NCBI GenBank assembly: GCA_002255905.1
Contig: NKIN01000003.1
Coordinates: 347,925-411,924 of the forward strand
Origin: Burkholderiales bacterium PBB1
Lineage (GTDB): Bacteria; Pseudomonadota; Gammaproteobacteria; Burkholderiales; Burkholderiaceae_C
DNA: 64,000 nucleotides
Direction of reading: 5' to 3'
Positions within the stretch are counted from its first letter, which is position 1. Each line of letters begins with the position of its first letter. Position numbers and translations under genes: made by a program. Shown one piece after another: positions 52,807-62,024 of the stretch. The notes beneath the pieces were generated by a model, which did no database searches, had not been told where the DNA came from, and saw nothing but the letters and a program-made list of their open reading frames with translations.

Positions 52807-53988
52807 TCATGCCCTGTGTGTTCTCAACAGCATCAGAGCCACGAAGGCGCTGACCCCGATCGCGGCCGACAGGCCGATTGCCCCCGTGCCCCAACGGTCG
52901 ATGGCCAAGCCAAACAGCAGCGGTGCCGAGGCCTGCGCCAGCCGTGAGGGCACCATCAGCCAGCCTTGTCGCACGCCATAACCCAGCGGACCGAACAGCA
53001 CCAGTGGCAAGGTGCCTTTGGCAATGGTCAGGATGCCGTTGCCCGCGCCATGCAGCAACGCAAAAGCCGCTGCACCAGGCGCCCCGAGCGTCCACAGGAT
53101 CGTGGCGCCGACGGGATGCGCCAGCGCCGCCAGCCGGGCTGACAGCAGCGGGTGGATCCGACGCAGCAAACCGAACTCCAGCACCCTGGCCACGACCTGC
53201 GCGGGCCCGATCAGCGCACCGATGCCCACGGCGATGGCCAGCGACACGCCACTGGCGTTGAGCAGGCGAGGCAGGTGCGTGGCCATCGCCGTGCTGATGA
53301 ACCACGTCGCCGCGAATGTGAATGCCAGCAAGATGGACGTCAGCGCAGGCGGCGTTGGTCGGTGAGCCTCCTGCGATGGCTCGGTGAGCGACACTGGCGC
53401 GGCGATGGGCACTCGATCTGGTGACGTCGGCGTGGGCAGCATTGCATTCAGTGGCAGTCCGATCACCAGATGCAGCACCGCCCATCCCAGGCACGCACCG
53501 CGCCATCCCAGGTGCGATTCCATCAGCGCCGAAAGTGGCCATCCCACGGTGCTGGCCAGGCCGGCGATCAAGGTGATGCCGGTGATCGCACGGCGCGACT
53601 CGCTGCCATACAGGCGCACCAGCGTCGCAAACGCTGCTTCGTACAGTCCGCTTCCCATCGCGACGCCGATCAGCAGCCAGGCTGCAAACAGCGTGAGCGG
53701 GCCTTGCACCGACGCCAGGGCGCCGAGCCCCAGTGCGAACAGCAAGTTGGTGCCCATCAGCAGCGACCGGCCGCCACGCAGATCGATCGCTCTGCCTGCC
53801 CACGGCCCGACCACGGCAGACACCAGCAGCGCGGTGGAGAAGGCTGCGAACACCAGTGTGGTCGACAGACCCAGGTCAGCGGCCATGGGCGCCGCAAGCA
53901 TCGCGGGCAGGTAGTACGACGAGGCCCAGGCCAGCGTCTGTGTCGTACCCAGCGCGGCAATCGGCTTGAACAGGGGTGACGGGCGCAT
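52807..53988 (-). CDS. Major facilitator superfamily transporter, in the arsenic island
   Basis: A 393-residue MFS protein with twelve hydrophobic segments. LAWASSYYLPAMLAAPMAAD is the first helix and VVGPWAGRAIDLRGGRSLLM the loop 2-3 motif (GRxxDxxGRR-like). It is next to a fossil acr3 end on its 5' side and may have replaced older ars DNA; role in arsenic transport (ArsK/ArsJ-like) is possible but nothing in the sequence proves it. Start ATG 53988 is used; GTG 54015 is in frame. No ribosome site is convincing for either. Confidence 0.82.
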   Translation of the reverse strand: MRPSPLFKPIAALGTTQTLAWASSYYLPAMLAAPMAADLGLSTTLVFAAFSTALLVSAVVGPWAGRAIDLRGGRSLLMGTNLLFALGLGALASVQGPLTLFAAWLLIGVAMGSGLYEAAFATLVRLYGSESRRAITGITLIAGLASTVGWPLSALMESHLGWRGACLGWAVLHLVIGLPLNAMLPTPTSPDRVPIAAPVSLTEPSQEAHRPTPPALTSILLAFTFAATWFISTAMATHLPRLLNASGVSLAIAVGIGALIGPAQVVARVLEFGLLRRIHPLLSARLAALAHPVGATILWTLGAPGAAAFALLHGAGNGILTIAKGTLPLVLFGPLGYGVRQGWLMVPSRLAQASAPLLFGLAIDRWGTGAIGLSAAIGVSAFVALMLLRTHRA

Positions 53989-54023
53989 CCGCGGGATCGA
54001 CGATTGGAAGGTCACTCAGGCGG

Positions 54024-54343: not shown

Positions 54344-54429
54344 CGTCCCGGCCGTCTGCCCGATGTCCAATATGGTGCGAATGCTCAAGCTGTGAATGCC
54401 GGCATCGATCCACTCACGAGGGAGTCAGC

Positions 54430-56478
54430 ATGGAAGTCAAGGTTCTCGGGACAGGCTGCAGCAAGTGTCGCAGCACCGTTGCCATGATCGAACGGGCTGG
54501 AATCAGCGCCGGTGTGGAAGTCGACATCGTGAAAGTCGAGGACCCGGACGAGATTCGGCGCCACGGCATCCACATGACACCGGCCGTCGTGATCGACGGA
54601 CAGGTGGTGCACAGTGGCGGACTGCCCTCTCACGCAGAGGTTCTGTCATGGTTGCGTCCCGACACGCCGGGGTTCCTCCATCGGCCGACGCGGCATCTGT
54701 TCTTCACCGGCAAGGGCGGAGTCGGCAAGACATCGCTGTCCACAGCCGCTGCGCTCGCCTTGGCCGACGTTGGCAAGCGGGTCTTGCTCGTCAGCACCGA
54801 CGCGGCTTCGAACCTCGATGAGATGCTGGGAATCGAGTTGCGAAACACGCCGGTGCCGGTGCCTGGCGCGCCTGGCTTGTCGGTGCTCAACATCGACCCG
54901 GACACGGCGGCAGAAGCCTATCGACAAAGGGTCATCGCGCAGATGGAGATCGGCACTGGTGGTGCCGAAATCGCCACGGTCCGCGAGCAACTCTCCGGCG
55001 CCTGCACCACCGAGATCGCGTCGTTCGACGAGTTCGCTTCGCTGCTTGCTGGCGGTGCTGGCGATGTCGACCACATCGTCTTCGACACCGCGCCGACGGG
55101 TCACACCTTGCGCTTGTTGAGCCTGCCTCAGGCCTGGAGTGGTTTTCTTGCGGGCAACGACCGGGGGGCGTCGTGCCTGGGCCCTCACTCGGGTTTGAAG
55201 ATGCAGGAGGCTCGCTTCAAGGCCGCGTTGGCTGCCCTCAGCGATCCGGCGCTCACGACGGTGATTCTGGTGACGCGGCCGGACTCGGGGGCGGTGTTGG
55301 AGGCGGCCCGAACGTCTGAAGAGTTGAATTCGCTCGGATTGAAGAATCAGCGTCTCGTCGTCAATGGCGTCTTTCACGCCAAGGACCGGGCCGACGCCAT
55401 TGCCTGTGCCATCGAAGCACTGGGGCTCAAGGCATTGGCCGAGATGCCGCTGTCGCTGCGGGCCCTGCCTCAGGATCGTGTTCCGCTGCGTTCTTTCGAT
55501 ACCGTTGGATTGCCTGCGCTGCGCGCGCTGCTCGGGACGAAGCCTGAGAGCGTCGACCCAGGGGAGTCGGTGCTCCGCAGCTCCGTTGAACCTGTCGAGC
55601 GTGTCCCCGGCCTGGATGCACTGGTCAACGAACTGGCCACAGCGGTACACGGCCTGATCATGGTGATGGGCAAGGGTGGGGTTGGCAAGACCACCGTCGC
55701 GGCAGCGCTTGCGCTCGGCCTGGTCCAGCGAGGCAAGTCGGTGCATCTCAGTACCACCGATCCTGCGGCGCATCTGGCCGGTACGTTGGATGGGGTGGTT
55801 CCCGGGCTGCGCGTCAGCCGAATCGATCCGAAGGCCGAAACGCAGCACTACATCGACAAGATCATGGCGGCGAAGTCACCTGGCCTCGATGCGCAGCAGC
55901 GGGCGTTGCTGCTCGAAGATCTGCGGTCACCGTGTACCGAGGAGGTGGCGGTGTTTCATGCGTTTTCGCGCATCGTCAGCGAGGGTCGCAGTGCATTCGT
56001 CGTGCTGGACACCGCGCCGACGGGGCACTCGCTGCTGCTGATGGACGCCACGGGTGCCTACCACCGCCAGATGATGCGCGAATTCGAAGGGCGTGGAGGC
56101 GCGCACATCGTCACGCCGCTGATGCGGCTGCAGGATGCCGCGTACACGAAGATCATCCTGGTGGCATTGCCTGAGGTGACCCCTGTCTCGCAGGCCGCTG
56201 CGCTGCAGGACGACCTCCGACGCGCCCATATCGAGCCGCACGCCTGGGTTCTCAACAAGAGCGTTCTGGCCGCTGGCACGCACGATCCGCTGCTGGCAGC
56301 GCGGCTGATCGGCGAACGCAAGCAGATGGCGCGGCTCTCTGCCGGTTTGGCGAAGCGGCTGTACGTGGTGCCCTGGCTGGTGTGCCCCCCTGTCGGTGTG
56401 GCCGAGCTTTCGAAGTTGGTCACCCCGCCGACCCTCGATGGCGGGGGTGAGTCGGGCAGGTCGACAACCGCTTGCTGA
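54430..56478 (+). CDS. arsA: Thioredoxin-like domain fused to arsenical pump-driving ATPase ArsA
   Basis: A 682-residue fusion. Residues 1-76 are a small thioredoxin-like fold of the MTH895 type: VKVLGTGCSKCRSTVAMI with the C10-x-x-C13 redox motif and the cis-Pro HMTPAVVIDG. ArsA begins near 86 and has two halves, with P-loops GKGGVGKT at 94-101 and 414-421 and DTAPTGHTLRLL/DTAPTGHSLLLM segments. The metalloid Cys are kept: Cys192 (GACTTEIASF), Cys249 (SCLGPHSG) and Cys502 (SPCTEEVAVF). Ordinary ArsA is about 583 residues and is fed by ArsD, which is absent here. GAGGGAG precedes ATG. Expected to energise arsenite efflux via Acr3. Confidence 0.92.
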   Translation: MEVKVLGTGCSKCRSTVAMIERAGISAGVEVDIVKVEDPDEIRRHGIHMTPAVVIDGQVVHSGGLPSHAEVLSWLRPDTPGFLHRPTRHLFFTGKGGVGKTSLSTAAALALADVGKRVLLVSTDAASNLDEMLGIELRNTPVPVPGAPGLSVLNIDPDTAAEAYRQRVIAQMEIGTGGAEIATVREQLSGACTTEIASFDEFASLLAGGAGDVDHIVFDTAPTGHTLRLLSLPQAWSGFLAGNDRGASCLGPHSGLKMQEARFKAALAALSDPALTTVILVTRPDSGAVLEAARTSEELNSLGLKNQRLVVNGVFHAKDRADAIACAIEALGLKALAEMPLSLRALPQDRVPLRSFDTVGLPALRALLGTKPESVDPGESVLRSSVEPVERVPGLDALVNELATAVHGLIMVMGKGGVGKTTVAAALALGLVQRGKSVHLSTTDPAAHLAGTLDGVVPGLRVSRIDPKAETQHYIDKIMAAKSPGLDAQQRALLLEDLRSPCTEEVAVFHAFSRIVSEGRSAFVVLDTAPTGHSLLLMDATGAYHRQMMREFEGRGGAHIVTPLMRLQDAAYTKIILVALPEVTPVSQAAALQDDLRRAHIEPHAWVLNKSVLAAGTHDPLLAARLIGERKQMARLSAGLAKRLYVVPWLVCPPVGVAELSKLVTPPTLDGGGESGRSTTAC

Positions 56479-56500: not shown

Positions 56501-57223
56501 TCAGATGCTTTTCTGGTTCACTCGTTGCGACAGCGCGTCCGCGCTTTCCTTGCGTTCGCTGTAGCGGTCGACAAGGTACGAGGTTGCATCGCGGGTCAGC
56601 AGCGTGAACTTCATCAGTTCTTCCATCACGTCGACCACGCGGTCGTAGTAGGCCGACGGCTTCATGCGCCCAGCCTCGTCGAACTCAAGGAAGGCCTTGG
56701 CCACCGACGACTGGTTCGGGATCGTCAGCATCCGCATCCAGCGGCCCAGTACGCGCAGCTGATTGACGGCATTGAAGGACTGCGAGCCGCCCGAGACTTC
56801 CATCACTGCCAGCGTCTTGCCCTGTGTCGGCCGCACCGCGCCCAGGCTGAGCGGAATCCAGTCGATCTGCGCTTTCATGATGCCGGTCATGGCGCCGTGG
56901 CGCTCGGGCGAGCACCACACCATGCCTTCGCACCAGTGCGCCAACTCGCGCAACTCGGCCACCTTGGGATGCGACTCGGGCGCGGCGTCGGGCAAGGGCA
57001 GGCCGGTCGGGTCGAACAACCGTGTCTCACCGCCCATTGCCTGCAGCAGCCGCGCGGCTTCCTCGCTCAAGAGGCGGCTGTAGGAGCGTTCCCTGAGTGA
57101 TCCGTAGAGCAGCAGGAAACGCGGCGGGTGGGTGGACGGAGATGTCGGCAGCAGCCGATCGATGCTCGGCACCGTGAACAGCGCGGCATCGATGTTCGGC
57201 AGAGAAATCGGGTGCTCAGACAC
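56501..57223 (-). CDS. arsH: NADPH-dependent FMN oxidoreductase ArsH
   Basis: A 240-residue flavoprotein that oxidises trivalent organoarsenicals and also reduces quinones. [20 protein letters not shown] is the phosphate-binding FMN loop, [20 protein letters not shown] the ArsH signature and [20 protein letters not shown] the second loop. The N-terminal [12 protein letters not shown] tail is ArsH-specific. GTG 57223 overlaps the acr3 stop by eight bases; an upstream TTG at 57238 is less likely. Last gene of arsR-arsC-acr3-arsH, convergent with the arsA fusion. Confidence 0.94.
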
Positions 57224-58307
57224 GCCGGCGATTCTCAACCATCCCCTGCTCGTACCAGCCCTTGCTGTTGTTCACCCACCTCACCACCAGCAGCATCACA
57301 GGCACCTCGATCAGCACGCCGACCACGGTGGCGAGTGCCGCGCCGGATTCGAAGCCGAACAGGCTGATCGCCGCCGCCACCGCCAGCTCGAAGAAGTTGC
57401 TCGCGCCGATCAAGGCCGACGGGCAGGCCACCGCGTGCGATTCGCCGAGGCGTCGGTTCAGCCAGTAGGCCAGGCCGGAGTTGAAGAACACCTGGATCAG
57501 GATCGGCACGGCCAGCATCGCGATCACCAGCGGCTGCTCAAGGATGGCGCGGCCCTGAAATGCGAACAGCAGCACCAGCGTGGCCAGCAGCGCCGTGATG
57601 GACCAGGGACCGATCTTGGCGAGCGTCGCATCGAAAACGGCTTGGCCGCGGCGGAGCAGTGCCCTGCGCCAGAGCTGCGCGATCACCACCGGGATCACGA
57701 TGTAAAGCACGACCGACGTGATCAGCGTGGCCCACGGCACAACGATGGCCGACAGGCCCAGCAGCAACGCGACGATGGGTGCGAAGGCGAACACCATGAT
57801 GGTGTCGTTCAGTGCCACCTGCGACAGCGTGAACAGCGGGTGGCCGCCGGTCAGCCGACTCCACACGAACACCATCGCGGTGCAGGGCGCAGCGGCCAGC
57901 AGGATCAGCCCGGCCACATAGCTGTCGGCCTGATCGGCTGGCAGATAAGGCGCGAACACATGGCGGATGAAGATCCAGCCCAGCAATGCCATCGAGAACG
58001 GCTTGACCGCCCAGTTGACGAACAGCGTGACGCCGATGCCGCGCCAGTGCTGACTGACCTGCGACAGCGCCGCGAAGTCGACCTTCAGCAGCATCGGGAT
58101 GATCATCACCCAGATCAGCAGACCGACGGGCAGGTTGACCTTCGCGATCTCCATGCGGCCGACGGCCTGGAACAGCCCCGGGAACAGCTGCCCCAGCGTG
58201 ATCCCCGCGACGATGCAGAGGAACACCCAGACGCTCAGGTAACGCTCGAAGATGCTCATCGGCGCGGGCACTGACGCGGGTGCGGGCAGGGTGGTGGTGT
58301 TCATCAT
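57216..58307 (-). CDS. acr3: Arsenite efflux transporter Acr3
   Basis: A 363-residue, ten-helix transporter of the BART superfamily that exports arsenite. [20 protein letters not shown] opens, [17 protein letters not shown] holds the essential Cys, [20 protein letters not shown] the Glu/Asn motif and it ends [13 protein letters not shown]. Energised alone by the proton gradient, or by an ArsA. A fossil of its 3' end lies at 54.0-54.2 kb. Follows arsC by 13 bases and overlaps arsH. Confidence 0.96.
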
Positions 58308-58320
58308 GACTCGCCGCCGT

Positions 58321-58815
58321 TCAGGCCTGGCCGATCTGCCTGAGCTCGCGGTGGATCGCCATGCGGTCCAGACTGGCCATGGGCAGCGACAGCATCAGCT
58401 CGATGCGGCGCTTCAGCGTGATCGCGGTGTCCATGAAGGCCCGGGCCTTGGCCTCATCCGTGCCTTCGACCGCAGCAGGATCGGGCACGCCCCAGTGCGC
58501 CGTCATCGGCTGGCCGGGCCACACCGGGCACATCTCGCCCGCCGCGTTGTCGCACACGGTGAAGACGTAGTCGAGCGCCGGCGCGCCGGGCTGCGAGAAC
58601 TCGTCCCAGTTCTTGCTGCGAAAGCCGTCGCTCGGGATGTGGAGCGCCTGCAAGGTCGACAGCGCGAATGGGTTGACGATGCCATTCGGATGGCTGCCGG
58701 CCGAATGCGCGACGAACCGGCCGCGGCCCAGGTGGTTGAGCAGGCCTTCGGCCAGGATCGAGCGGGCCGAGTTGCCGGTGCAGATGAACAGCACGTGCTG
58801 AGGGGTGTCTGACAT
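58321..58815 (-). CDS. arsC: Arsenate reductase, low-molecular-weight phosphatase type
   Basis: A 164-residue LMW-PTP-fold reductase turning arsenate into arsenite for export. FICTGNSARSILAEGLL is the P-loop with the nucleophile Cys; YVFTVCDNAAGEMCPVWPGQ gives two further Cys of the relay; HWGVPDPAAVEG is the Asp loop. This is the thioredoxin- or glutaredoxin-linked type; the thioredoxin-like domain fused to ArsA nearby is a tempting but unproven partner. The ribosome site is AAGGTATTCCC-like and weak; coupled by position between arsR and acr3. Confidence 0.94.
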   Translation of the reverse strand: MSDTPQHVLFICTGNSARSILAEGLLNHLGRGRFVAHSAGSHPNGIVNPFALSTLQALHIPSDGFRSKNWDEFSQPGAPALDYVFTVCDNAAGEMCPVWPGQPMTAHWGVPDPAAVEGTDEAKARAFMDTAITLKRRIELMLSLPMASLDRMAIHRELRQIGQA

Positions 58816-58839: not shown

Positions 58840-59166
58840 TCAGCAGCTTGTGCAGGATGGGGTAGTCACCTCGGCGCAGGCCTCGCCGGCACAGCAGTTC
58901 GCTGTCAGGTAGGCCATCAGGCCGTTCATCTGCTCGAAGCCTGCGCGGTAGATCAGGCTGCGGCCGTCACGCTGCTGTGTGGCGAGGCTGGCGTGCATCA
59001 GTTCTTTCAGGTGGAACGACAGCGTAGAGGCCGGCACCCTCAGGGCTTCGGCCAGCGCGCCTGGCGTCATGCCCTTCGGGCCGGCGACCACCAGCGCACG
59101 GAACACCCGCAGCCGTGCCGGCTGGGCAAGCGCCGCCAATGCGGCGATGACGTCTGGTTCTTCCAT
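58840..59166 (-). CDS. arsR: Arsenite-responsive repressor ArsR with C-terminal Cys sensor
   Basis: A 108-residue winged-helix repressor. Winged-helix core: QPARLRVFRALVVAGPKG, VPASTLSFHLKELMHASLA and DGRSLIYRAGFE. It lacks the ELCVCD site of the R773 type; instead the C terminus carries Cys91, Cys92, Cys97, Cys105 and Cys108, the layout of the Acidithiobacillus-type ArsR in which Cys95, Cys96 and Cys102 bind As(III). First gene of the ars operon with the promoter directly upstream. Confidence 0.94.
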   Translation of the reverse strand: MEEPDVIAALAALAQPARLRVFRALVVAGPKGMTPGALAEALRVPASTLSFHLKELMHASLATQQRDGRSLIYRAGFEQMNGLMAYLTANCCAGEACAEVTTPSCTSC

Positions 59167-59258: not shown

Positions 59259-60605
59259 TCAGGGGAGCGGCCAGTCCACCGTGGCCGACAGCCCGCCCAG
59301 GCCGTTCGCGCGACCGATCGCCGCTTTGGCCCGGTGCACGGCCGCGATGCGCTGCACGATCGACCAGCCCAGCCCGCTGCCGCTTTGTGCCGTGCCCAGA
59401 ACGCGGAAGAAGCGCTCGCCGAGGCGCTGCATGTCGGACGGGCTCATGCCCGGTCCGCTGTCGTCGACCAAGAGCCGGACGCCGTCTGGCTGCCGACGCA
59501 GCGCAATCTGGATGTGGCCCTGGGCCGGGCTGTAGCGGATCGCGTTGTCGACCAGGTTGCGCACCAGTACGGCGAGCAGCAAGGCATCGCCGCGGACCTG
59601 GCAGGGCTCCGGCGCATCGACCTCGATGGATTGCTGCTTGTCGATCGCCTGCGGTGCGAGCTCGGCCACCGCGCCGCGCACCACCGCATTCAAGTCGACT
59701 TCCTGCCCCAGGGGTACCGCACCGGCCTCCAGCCGCGACAAGGTGAGCAACTGCTCGACCAGCCGGGTGGCTCGGTCGCAGCCCTCGAGGGTGGCGGCGA
59801 GCGCCCGCTGGCGCATCGCGTCATGGGCTTCTCCCTGCGCGACCTGCGCGTGCAAGCGGATGGCCGCGATCGGTGTGCGCAGTTCATGCGCTGCATCGGC
59901 GGTGAAGCGTCGTTCGGAGGCCATCAACTCGCCGATGCGGGAGAGCAGGCCGTTGAGCGCGTCGAGCATCGGTGTCATCTCGGAGGGGGCGCCGTCGACT
60001 CGTACCGGCGTCAACGCCTGGGGCTCACGCTGGGCCAACGCGTGTCCCAGTCGCTTGAGCGGTGCGACACCGCGATGCACCGCCCAGCCGATCGCCACGG
60101 CCAGCAGTGGCAGCGCGGCGGCCATCGGCCACAGCGTGCTGCGCAGCACCGCCCACAGGATGGCCTCGCGTGAGGCCAACTGCTCGCCAACGTACACCTG
60201 CACATCGCGCTGCACGCCGCGGGTGGCGAACACACGCCAGTCCACCCTGTCGATCCGCACCGTCCGGAATCCTGACTCGAAGTCGGCGTCGATCCCGGCC
60301 ATCGGGGTTGTCGGCGCGGTGACCGAGCGCATCGTCAGCTGCCCGTCGTGGAACACCTGGAAGGCAACCTTCGGGGCGTAGCGGTGCAGCAGTGGCGCGT
60401 CCACCACGTCGTCGTCATCGCCATCGCTGGCCTGCTGCACCACCAGCAACGCTGCTGCCTGGGCGAGGTGGCCATCGAGCAGTTCGTCGAGTTCGTGTCG
60501 GGCGTCGAGCGATGTCACCACCACGGTGACGACCCAGACAGCCACCACCAGACCCACGATCAGCCCGAGCAGCCGACCTTGGAGCGAGCGTGGCGCCAGT
60601 GTCAT
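59259..60605 (-). CDS. Sensor histidine kinase (QseC/TctE type)
   Basis: A 448-residue inner-membrane kinase. Membrane helix 1 at about 10-35, periplasmic sensor of about 125 residues, helix 2 (ALPLLAVAIGWAVHRGV), HAMP, dimerisation box RRFTADAAHELRTPIAAIRL with the phospho-His, N box VRNLVDNAIRYSP, G1 DDSGPGMS and G2 GSGLGWSIVQRIA. Pairs with the regulator, whose last four bases overlap its start (ATGA at 60602-60605). The genes upstream are electron-transfer cytochromes, so the sensed cue may be redox related. Confidence 0.92.
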   Translation of the reverse strand: MTLAPRSLQGRLLGLIVGLVVAVWVVTVVVTSLDARHELDELLDGHLAQAAALLVVQQASDGDDDDVVDAPLLHRYAPKVAFQVFHDGQLTMRSVTAPTTPMAGIDADFESGFRTVRIDRVDWRVFATRGVQRDVQVYVGEQLASREAILWAVLRSTLWPMAAALPLLAVAIGWAVHRGVAPLKRLGHALAQREPQALTPVRVDGAPSEMTPMLDALNGLLSRIGELMASERRFTADAAHELRTPIAAIRLHAQVAQGEAHDAMRQRALAATLEGCDRATRLVEQLLTLSRLEAGAVPLGQEVDLNAVVRGAVAELAPQAIDKQQSIEVDAPEPCQVRGDALLLAVLVRNLVDNAIRYSPAQGHIQIALRRQPDGVRLLVDDSGPGMSPSDMQRLGERFFRVLGTAQSGSGLGWSIVQRIAAVHRAKAAIGRANGLGGLSATVDWPLP

Positions 60606-61273
60606 GTCTTCGGAGTGTCGCGCAGCAGCATGTATCCCACGCCGCGCACCGTCTGGATCAAGGTCGAACCCAGCTTGCGCCGCAGGTGGTGGATGTGCAC
60701 TTCGACCGCATTGCTGTCGACCTCCTGACCCCAGCCGTAGACGCGCTTCTCGAGCTGCTCACGCGACAACACGCGCCCGGCGTTGAGCAACAGCGCCTGC
60801 AGCAGATCGAACTCACGCCCCGAAAGCAGGACCGCCTTGCCAGCCTGCTCGACGCTGCGCGCCGCCGGGTCCAGTCGCACATCCTGGGCGGTCAGGATCT
60901 CTTGGGGCCGGCCGTGCGAGCGGCGTATCAGCGCACGCAGCCGGGCGGCGAGTTCGTGCAGATCCACTGGCTTGACCACGTAATCATCGGCGCCGACATC
61001 GAGCCCGCTGATGCGGTCCGGCAGTCCGTCGCGCGCGGTCAACACGAGCACCGGCAGCGCGTTGCCACTGCGTCGCAGCGCAGCGAGCACGTCCATCCCG
61101 TCCATCCTGGGCAGCCCGAGATCGAGCACGGCCGCAGCGTAGCAGTCGGTGCGCAGCTCACGCTCGGCGGCGGCGCCATCACGCACCCAGTCCACGAGGA
61201 AACCGAGCTGCCGCAGCCCCGCTTGCAGACCCTCGCCCAGCAGGGGGTCGTCTTCGGCCAGAAGGATGCGCAT
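60602..61273 (-). CDS. OmpR-family response regulator (QseB type)
   Basis: A 223-residue two-domain regulator. Receiver: MRILLAEDDPLLGEGLQAGL, acidic pair, phospho-acceptor AVLDLGLPRMDG, and LTARDG and DYVVKPVDLHELAARL; winged-helix output ending AVEVHIHHLRRKLGSTLIQT and TVRGVGYML. ATG 61273 is chosen over the longer frame to 61318, which adds a non-family tail. Same minus-strand unit as the kinase and cytochromes; a QseB/PmrA-like direct repeat lies upstream of the SHP gene. Confidence 0.93.
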   Translation of the reverse strand: MRILLAEDDPLLGEGLQAGLRQLGFLVDWVRDGAAAERELRTDCYAAAVLDLGLPRMDGMDVLAALRRSGNALPVLVLTARDGLPDRISGLDVGADDYVVKPVDLHELAARLRALIRRSHGRPQEILTAQDVRLDPAARSVEQAGKAVLLSGREFDLLQALLLNAGRVLSREQLEKRVYGWGQEVDSNAVEVHIHHLRRKLGSTLIQTVRGVGYMLLRDTPKT

Positions 61274-61298
61274 GTCAGAAACCGGATGTCTGCTGGGT

Positions 61299-62024
61299 TC
61301 AGTCTTCGTCGCGATCATGCGCGAGCGCAGGGGCTGTCGGCTTGTGGCTGATGCCGCTGGCCGGGGCCCCTTGCCACTGCAGCCACCAGAACCCCAGCAC
61401 CGCCACCAGCATGAGCAGGGCCACGCTGCGCCAGGCGTTGCGAACGCCGTCTTCGGGGCGACCGGACTTGCGGCCGGTGATCATCGAGGCGGTCAGGTTC
61501 TCGCGGTGCAGTCTGCTGCTGAGCAGGACCCCGGCGATGTGCACGCCGATCACGGCCAGCATGGTATTGGCCGCCAATTCGTGGAGCTCCTCCGACCATT
61601 CGCCACCGAGGTCGTTGTAGACCGACCAGCCCGACAGCCCGATGGCCATCGTCAGGCCCAGCAGTGCCAGGATCGCCAGTGCGCCTGCCGGGTTGTGGCC
61701 GACGTGGTGTTCCGGTCGGCCGCTGACGAGGCTGCGCAGGTAACGCCCGACGGCCGCCGGCCCGCGCACGAAGTTCGAGAACCTGGCGTACCGGCTGCCT
61801 ATCAGGCCCCAGGCCAGGCGAAACACGACCAGCCCCACCATCGTGTAGCCGAGGGTCACGTGCACGAGCCGCCAGCGTTCGCTTTCGGCCGTGAGGTAGG
61901 CGCCTGCAAAACTCATCACCATCAGCCAGTGGAAGACGCGCACCGGCAGGTCCCACACCAGCATGGTGGGTCGGGCCGCCGGAGCAGCGCCAGCGTCAGC
62001 GAGGGATGCGGACATGGTCTTCAT
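61299..62024 (-). CDS. Cytochrome b561-type membrane protein
   Basis: A 241-residue di-haem cytochrome b of the b561/NiFe-hydrogenase b type with four to five helices. WDLPVRVFHWLMVMSFAGAY carries His ligands, LVHVTLGYTMVGLVVFRLAW the second helix, AVIGVHIAGVLLSSRLHREN the third with His. It likely passes electrons from the quinone pool to the periplasmic c-type cytochromes encoded next to it. Its 5' end overlaps the diheme cytochrome gene by 29 bases. The C terminus ends in a helix and a short acidic tail. Confidence 0.88.
   Translation of the reverse strand: MKTMSASLADAGAAPAARPTMLVWDLPVRVFHWLMVMSFAGAYLTAESERWRLVHVTLGYTMVGLVVFRLAWGLIGSRYARFSNFVRGPAAVGRYLRSLVSGRPEHHVGHNPAGALAILALLGLTMAIGLSGWSVYNDLGGEWSEELHELAANTMLAVIGVHIAGVLLSSRLHRENLTASMITGRKSGRPEDGVRNAWRSVALLMLVAVLGFWWLQWQGAPASGISHKPTAPALAHDRDED

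Follow-up and report, generated by a model that had tools for sequence, protein, structure and literature searches.

The genes arsD and arsA are described as nearly always adjacent in the available part of a review of the subject (PMC6205960). In the accessible portion of a second paper, the top SCOP hit of ArsD by HHpred is d1iloa, MTH895 (PMC3091736, Table 3), and an ArsD-like role is therefore plausible for the MTH895 family, also known as redox-active disulfide protein 2 or ArsE (TIGR00412, PF13192; PDB 1ILO). Castillo and Saier, in the text available of PMC2963123, report that ars operons can contain genes for redox-active disulfide protein 2 alongside those for CcdA and thioredoxin, and suggest that the protein serves ArsC; 'fused' is absent from that text and both places with 'fusion' concern other matters. 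The words 'thioredoxin', 'fusion' and 'fused' each occur 0 times in the main text, as far as accessible, of an arsenic-gene survey of 188 Burkholderiales genomes (PMC3954881). Across the available parts of PMC2963123, PMC6205960, PMC6514093, PMC3954881, PMC12607644 and PMC3091736, a thioredoxin-ArsA fusion was not found, and a direct literature search, whose coverage takes in few subscription journals, gave no paper on such a fusion or on MTH895 with arsenic. The component families are known; for the fusion, we found no printed description in the partly accessible literature searched.

Here we describe a gene that fuses a CxxC mini-thioredoxin of the MTH895/ArsE family to an ArsA belonging to a class without adjacent arsD. 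The window, meaning the whole 64,000-nucleotide stretch of Burkholderiales bacterium PBB1 DNA that was analysed, holds on its plus strand an open frame of 682 aa running from ATG 54430 to a stop codon that ends at 56478. The frame and its surroundings comprise the following features.

52807-54015, divergent from arsA: MFS transporter gene, ArsK-like (228.5 bits, under the 400-bit cut-off)
54418-54424, plus: plausible ribosome-binding site GAGGGAG ahead of ATG 54430 (sequence)
54430..54654, plus: N-terminal mini-thioredoxin, MTH895/ArsE family, residues 1-75 (profile matches)
54457-54468, plus: CSKC, residues 10-13 (sequence)
54577-54591, plus: cis-Pro motif TPAVV, residues 50-54 (sequence)
54655..54684, plus: interdomain linker, about residues 76-85 (pLDDT <50 at residues 78-86 of the full-length model)
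54685..56379, plus: ArsA, two halves, residues 86-650, with C192, C249, C502 and two DTAPTGH motifs (TIGR04291, alignment to solved ArsA, invariant columns)
56501..57238, minus: arsH (TIGR02690, 417.6 bits), convergent with arsA
57216..58307, minus: acr3, ACR3-family arsenite efflux transporter (TIGR00832, 385.7 bits)
58321..58815, minus: arsC, low-molecular-weight-phosphatase type (PF01451; TIGR02691 at 66.4 bits, under the equivalog cut-off of 174.3)
58840..59166, minus: arsR, ArsR/SmtB-type regulator (NF033788, 58.5 bits vs cut-off 55)

The first-pass annotation had read the start of this protein as a thioredoxin-like domain with CSKC and TPAVV, and a profile search bears this out: residues 1-75 match Pfam Thioredoxin_3 (PF13192; E 2.7e-21, 75.8 bits vs cut-off 24.8) and NCBIfam TIGR00412, 'MTH895/ArsE family thioredoxin-like protein' (72.8 bits vs cut-off 62), and the domain has the CxxC and cis-Pro of these families on a thioredoxin fold. 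The eight solo members of the family that we compared are separate small proteins, whereas the window's is joined to ArsA. The reading of the remainder as a complete two-half ArsA with all three cysteines also held, with residues 86-650 scoring 693.7 bits against TIGR04291, an equivalog with a cut-off of 650. Like described ArsA (TIGR04291; PDB 1f48, 9nbl), this portion has two ATPase halves, both P-loops, the DTAPTGH motifs and C192, C249 and C502, which align with cysteines of the solved 9nbl and 1f48 and are Cys in 166/166 ArsA rows compared (window counted twice). We take these three residues to be the metalloid ligands of ArsA. The window protein differs in its added N-terminal domain and in its class, defined below. 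Longer starts are available, among them a 713-aa ORF from GTG 54337; in most fused relatives (best 80 of 388 stretches) the alignment begins at window residue 1. The AF2 full-length model (pLDDT 74) has a low-confidence linker that leaves the position of the thioredoxin domain relative to ArsA unfixed, and placement of the thioredoxin on ArsA from this model was dropped because it gave no usable geometry.

With ArsD (PF06953, NF033727) the window domain has in common the thioredoxin fold, a place immediately upstream of ArsA and a weak relation in its second half (hhalign probability 92.7, E 4.3e-7, 55 columns); PF06953 matches it at E 0.0018, under cut-off, and a Foldseek search with the domain lists ArsD 3mwh at rank 43. 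However, it is fused and not separate, it falls below both ArsD profile cut-offs when searched alone (19 bits vs 27 for Pfam, 17.5 vs 90 for NCBIfam), and it is devoid of the CC-x4-C site and the C-terminal Cys pairs. The Cys-Cys-x4-Cys site (C12, C13, C18) is present in 24 of 25 ArsD rows, with a gap in the other; the window domain contains only C10 and C13, and thus no built-in three-thiolate As(III) site.

Downstream of the fused gene, the operon arsR-arsC-acr3-arsH on the minus strand reads toward arsA on the plus strand. By neighbourhood, then, arsA does belong to this ars cluster, as had been stated, but it is convergent with the operon and lies outside it. No motif of 14 bases, with up to 2 mismatches, is shared between the arsR and arsA upstream regions, and a promoter and terminator scan of the locus yielded no terminator and, on the minus strand, a single weak promoter-like site. 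A profile search of the organism's own genome (99.62% complete) gave 0 matches to ArsD (PF06953); beyond the absence of arsD that had been noted for the locus, an arsD elsewhere that might serve this ArsA was thus looked for and not found. The same genome has one ArsA over cut-off, no match to an ArsP_1 permease and, apart from the fused domain, two Thioredoxin_3 matches, the first above cut-off (32.8 bits, within a 543-aa frame) and the second below it.

A scan of a genome collection, using the best 80 of 388 encoding stretches plus later loci and classified by script, yielded at least 54 distinct fused genes, the window's included, after removal of duplicates; counts of 55 fused rows include the window twice. 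'Fused' here takes in two genes with partial domain deletions (L020, L042) and two that miss one CxxC cysteine each (L045, L141), and a gene cut by a contig end (L047) and one broken within ArsA (L064) were dropped. Because 53 other distinct fused genes entered the ArsA tree, the fusion is not a matter of chance. A sample of 399 genomes of the family has fused genes in 11 genus codes. Beyond the family, in a 393-genome sample of the phylum, only the window and one genome of the same family (G264) align from the first residues. On plasmids, no fused gene was seen among the 40 matches listed of 2047 records; in three records a single place spans 80% or more of the query, and of these one is a separate thioredoxin-arsA pair and another has an ArsD-related gene ahead of arsA.

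The family sample separates the fate of arsD from that of the fusion. Its 399 genomes gave 134 match rows, from which 16 fragments were removed (two of these, both from G781, may be pieces of a further fused gene broken across contigs), leaving 118 genes counted. Genes with at least 63% identity to the query were assigned to class T, those with 50-55% to class D, and a match starting at query residue 5 or before was called fused. An adjacent arsD occurs in 0/16 fused genes, 0/52 other class T genes and 45/50 class D genes; the difference between the classes has a Fisher p of 2.4e-27 with kinship ignored. Missing from fused and unfused class T genes alike, an adjacent arsD follows the ArsA class and not the fusion. 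The co-occurrence of fusion and lack of arsD, for which the first-pass annotation had proposed a genome survey, is thus seen among the fused genes but is no property of theirs, being just as complete in the rest of the class. Any ArsD match at all is found in three class T genomes only: two of them (G628, G775) also carry a class D arsA, and in the third (G684) the match is a sub-threshold fragment. From the lists for an order sample of 399 genomes, the class T genomes G000, G264, G061 and G068 are not among the 38 with an ArsD match. Where the available part of the review treats ArsD and ArsA as a unit (PMC6205960), a whole ArsA class in the sampled genomes stands without adjacent arsD, and part of that class carries a built-in dithiol domain.

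Eight near-fixed positions also tell the two classes apart, H253-S254, V506 and M538 included. Directly after C249, H253-S254 is found in 139/139 class T rows (window twice), compared with L-A in 27/27 rows of the arsD-linked class D; the solved structures have L-A (9nbl) and M-A (1f48) at this position. V506 and M538 of class T sit near C502 and H533. It may be that metalloid handling differs between class T and class D.

Trees were built on ArsA cores with the thioredoxin part excluded; thinning removed 22 of the 27 class D rows from the second tree. Class T forms one clade in both (support 100 and 99), and its deepest branches are unfused; ArsD absence therefore most simply predates the fusion. 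All fused genes lie within a clade of 97 (support 83) made up of 54 fused, 14 remnant, 28 without the domain and 1 with it as a separate gene; within it, one subclade of 85 (support 99) contains 48 of the fused genes and another of 12 (support 96) contains the remaining 6. A single gain requires 29 losses and unweighted parsimony counts 27 changes, on a tree with poor support at many inner nodes; the domain could also have been gained through recombination or by a second fusion event. The thioredoxin domain has been lost repeatedly while ArsA stayed. Some relatives retain in-frame remnants of the domain before an intact ArsA: L061 still has the start MEAKVLG and the linker side but, relative to its sister L011, has lost 189 bp in frame, and clean in-frame deletions of 177, 153 and 138 bp are present in L071, L065 and L053. 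In all, 11 remnant/intact pairs were aligned; L032, L049, L051, L057, L069, L072 and L077 gave no clean result. BLAST support (E <0.01) exists for 7 of the 14 remnant rows (L032, L044, L046, L049, L057, L065, L066), and the other 7 rest on the short start peptide, a pattern present in 10 of the 14 remnant rows and also in 2 of 69 rows classed as having no domain. In the remnants of L044 and L066 the frame is lost or a stop falls in the first half, breaks that could be assembly errors.

In the genes that carry it, the domain evolves under purifying selection, at about half the stringency seen for ArsA. Over 429 pairs with ArsA dS <0.9 among 50 fused sequences (L020, L042, L045 and L029 excluded; pairs share history), its median omega is 0.29 (5-95%: 0.16-0.48; maximum 0.85; none >=1), compared with 0.14 and 0.15 for the ArsA halves over the same pairs. 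Of the 54 distinct fused genes, 52 retain the CxxC (53 of 55 rows, window twice); in the other two, L045 has lost C10 and L141 has lost C13. In an alignment of 43 fused proteins, the window's and 42 relatives, C10, C13, T50-P51, H61 and W74 are invariant; L020, L021, L042, L045 and the fused genes found only by genome search, L141 among them, were excluded from it.

A source for the domain is suggested by the solo thioredoxins. In a midpoint-rooted tree with 8 solo sequences, a number too small to prove single origin, the fused domains group together as a single clade (support 99). A permease-like gene adjoins 6 of these 8, and the three permeases tested are PF03773 ArsP_1. On a plasmid of Ideonella dechloratans (L081), a permease gene is followed by a thioredoxin gene, which a gap of 7 bp separates from arsA; the permease is PF03773 ArsP_1 and no arsD is annotated on the stretch. 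This arrangement shares with the window the ArsA class and a thioredoxin of the same family directly upstream of arsA, but the genes are separate. In another locus (L035) the gene immediately before a fused thioredoxin-ArsA is itself a solo thioredoxin. We infer that the joining of a neighbouring thioredoxin to arsA is the simplest origin, in which a permease-linked kind of thioredoxin gene, directly upstream of arsA, would have become joined to it.

For function, the interpretation we prefer is that the domain serves as an accessory tethered dithiol acting in cis on the metalloid-site chemistry of ArsA; drawn from sequence comparison, it is probably correct, with appreciable room for error. 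The CxxC mini-thioredoxin would be a dithiol arm on a flexible linker. C10 and C13 could capture As(III) or Sb(III), or a glutathione complex, and hand it over to C192, C249 and C502; alternatively or additionally, the arm could keep those three cysteines reduced. Each branch is tentative. Hand-over, to which the position of the domain ahead of ArsA and the rank of MTH895 as top SCOP hit of ArsD in the accessible part of PMC3091736 point, is a little more likely than maintenance, which the presence of just two cysteines and the redox family favour; both may apply. Class T members with the same three cysteines and no domain argue against an essential role, and since such relatives have no adjacent arsD either, the domain should raise rate or affinity and not be required. 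Real, common to relatives and repeatedly discarded, the fusion therefore looks like a useful optional helper and not a missing arsenic chaperone. Against an accessory dithiol acting in cis stand the redox activity denoted by the family name, the many fused loci without a recognised ars neighbour (24 of 36; see below), the looser selection than on ArsA, a cysteine number too low for a three-thiolate As(III) site, the cysteine losses in L045 and L141, the partial deletions in L020 and L042, and the unfixed placement in the model. A more specific version, possible but on balance doubtful, is that an ArsD-independent ArsA lineage with a changed metalloid-site neighbourhood (H253-S254) may have captured a permease-linked redoxin as a covalent As(III)-loading arm, optional and excised in frame many times; if true, the metallochaperone of this ArsA would be intramolecular. 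Natural pairs such as L011 and L061, closely related but differing in whether the domain is there, make the part of the tethered thiol in As(III) loading directly testable.

The first-pass annotation had suggested that the domain replaces ArsD, and in its strong form this would mean that the fused domain took over the metallochaperone role on loss of arsD, with ArsA now dependent on it. The own genome without an ArsD match, the location directly ahead of ArsA, as arsD has in class D, and the weak second-half relation and shared fold (PF06953, hhalign; 3mwh by Foldseek) fit this idea. However, adjacent arsD is equally missing from the other 52 class T genes, the deep branches of the class are unfused, the domain was lost with no arsD nearby, and the ArsD cysteine pattern is missing from a domain with two cysteines only, all of which leaves replacement improbable; as a requirement, it was set back by the arsD survey and the ArsA trees. 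Redox maintenance alone, a branch of the preferred accessory-dithiol reading in which the domain reduces disulfides in ArsA (C192, C249, C502) or a partner and carries no As(III), fares better and is still rather unlikely: CxxC, cis-Pro, redox family and the two cysteines agree with it, but none of the 84 class T rows lacking a fused domain has lost any of the three cysteines, and these proteins evidently manage alone.

Gene neighbourhoods bear on two other proposals. The comparison covered class T loci flanked by at least 4.5 kb on each side, 36 fused and 53 not fused, using a reference set from which arsB is absent, and none of the ars genes tested near arsA differs between the groups at p <0.1. 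With arsB outside the reference set, no arsR, arsC, acr3, arsH or arsI is found within 5 kb of arsA in 24/36 fused and 27/53 unfused loci (51/89 together). The count for the fused loci, and the convergence of arsA with the acr3 operon in the window, weaken the suggestion that the fused protein and Acr3 make a self-contained unit. Recycling of the thiol-needing ArsC, also raised by the first-pass annotation, would accord with the arsC in the neighbouring operon and with what Castillo and Saier, in the accessible text of PMC2963123, proposed for the unfused redox-active disulfide protein 2 in ars operons. Yet the fusion is not associated with a nearby ArsC of the low-molecular-weight type (12/36 fused vs 20/53 not fused, p 0.82) or the glutaredoxin type (7/36 vs 9/53, p 0.79), nor is there an apparent reason for a tether to ArsA, and we give this role little credence. 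That the domain is a passenger, joined by accident and decaying, would explain the many losses and remnants and the looser selection, but omega is below 1 in all 429 pairs used, the CxxC persists in 52 of 54 fused genes, and fused genes occur in 11 genus codes of the family sample; a mere passenger is thus hardly to be expected.

Other genes recur around class T arsA. A cation diffusion facilitator gene lies within 5 kb of arsA in 5/36 fused and 0/53 unfused loci (p 0.009, one of 12 tests and uncorrected for that or for relatedness; for example L017 701-1687 and L023 6942-7898), and without the flank filter nine loci have it within 4 kb, 8 of them fused. In 8 loci, of which 6 are fused, arsA is closely followed on its own strand by a gene whose product has about 136 aa (for example L055 9834-10244). 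Genes for a sensor kinase, a response regulator and a cytochrome b (label by eye) lie near the ars genes of the window at 59259-62024, and the same three kinds recur on a Caballeronia plasmid (L085 3456-6591) in the vicinity of a class T arsA. Class T ArsA is also present in assemblies labelled Schlesneria (L030), Gammaproteobacteria (L032), Planctomycetales (L074) and Telmatospirillum (L077), by gene transfer or mis-binning.
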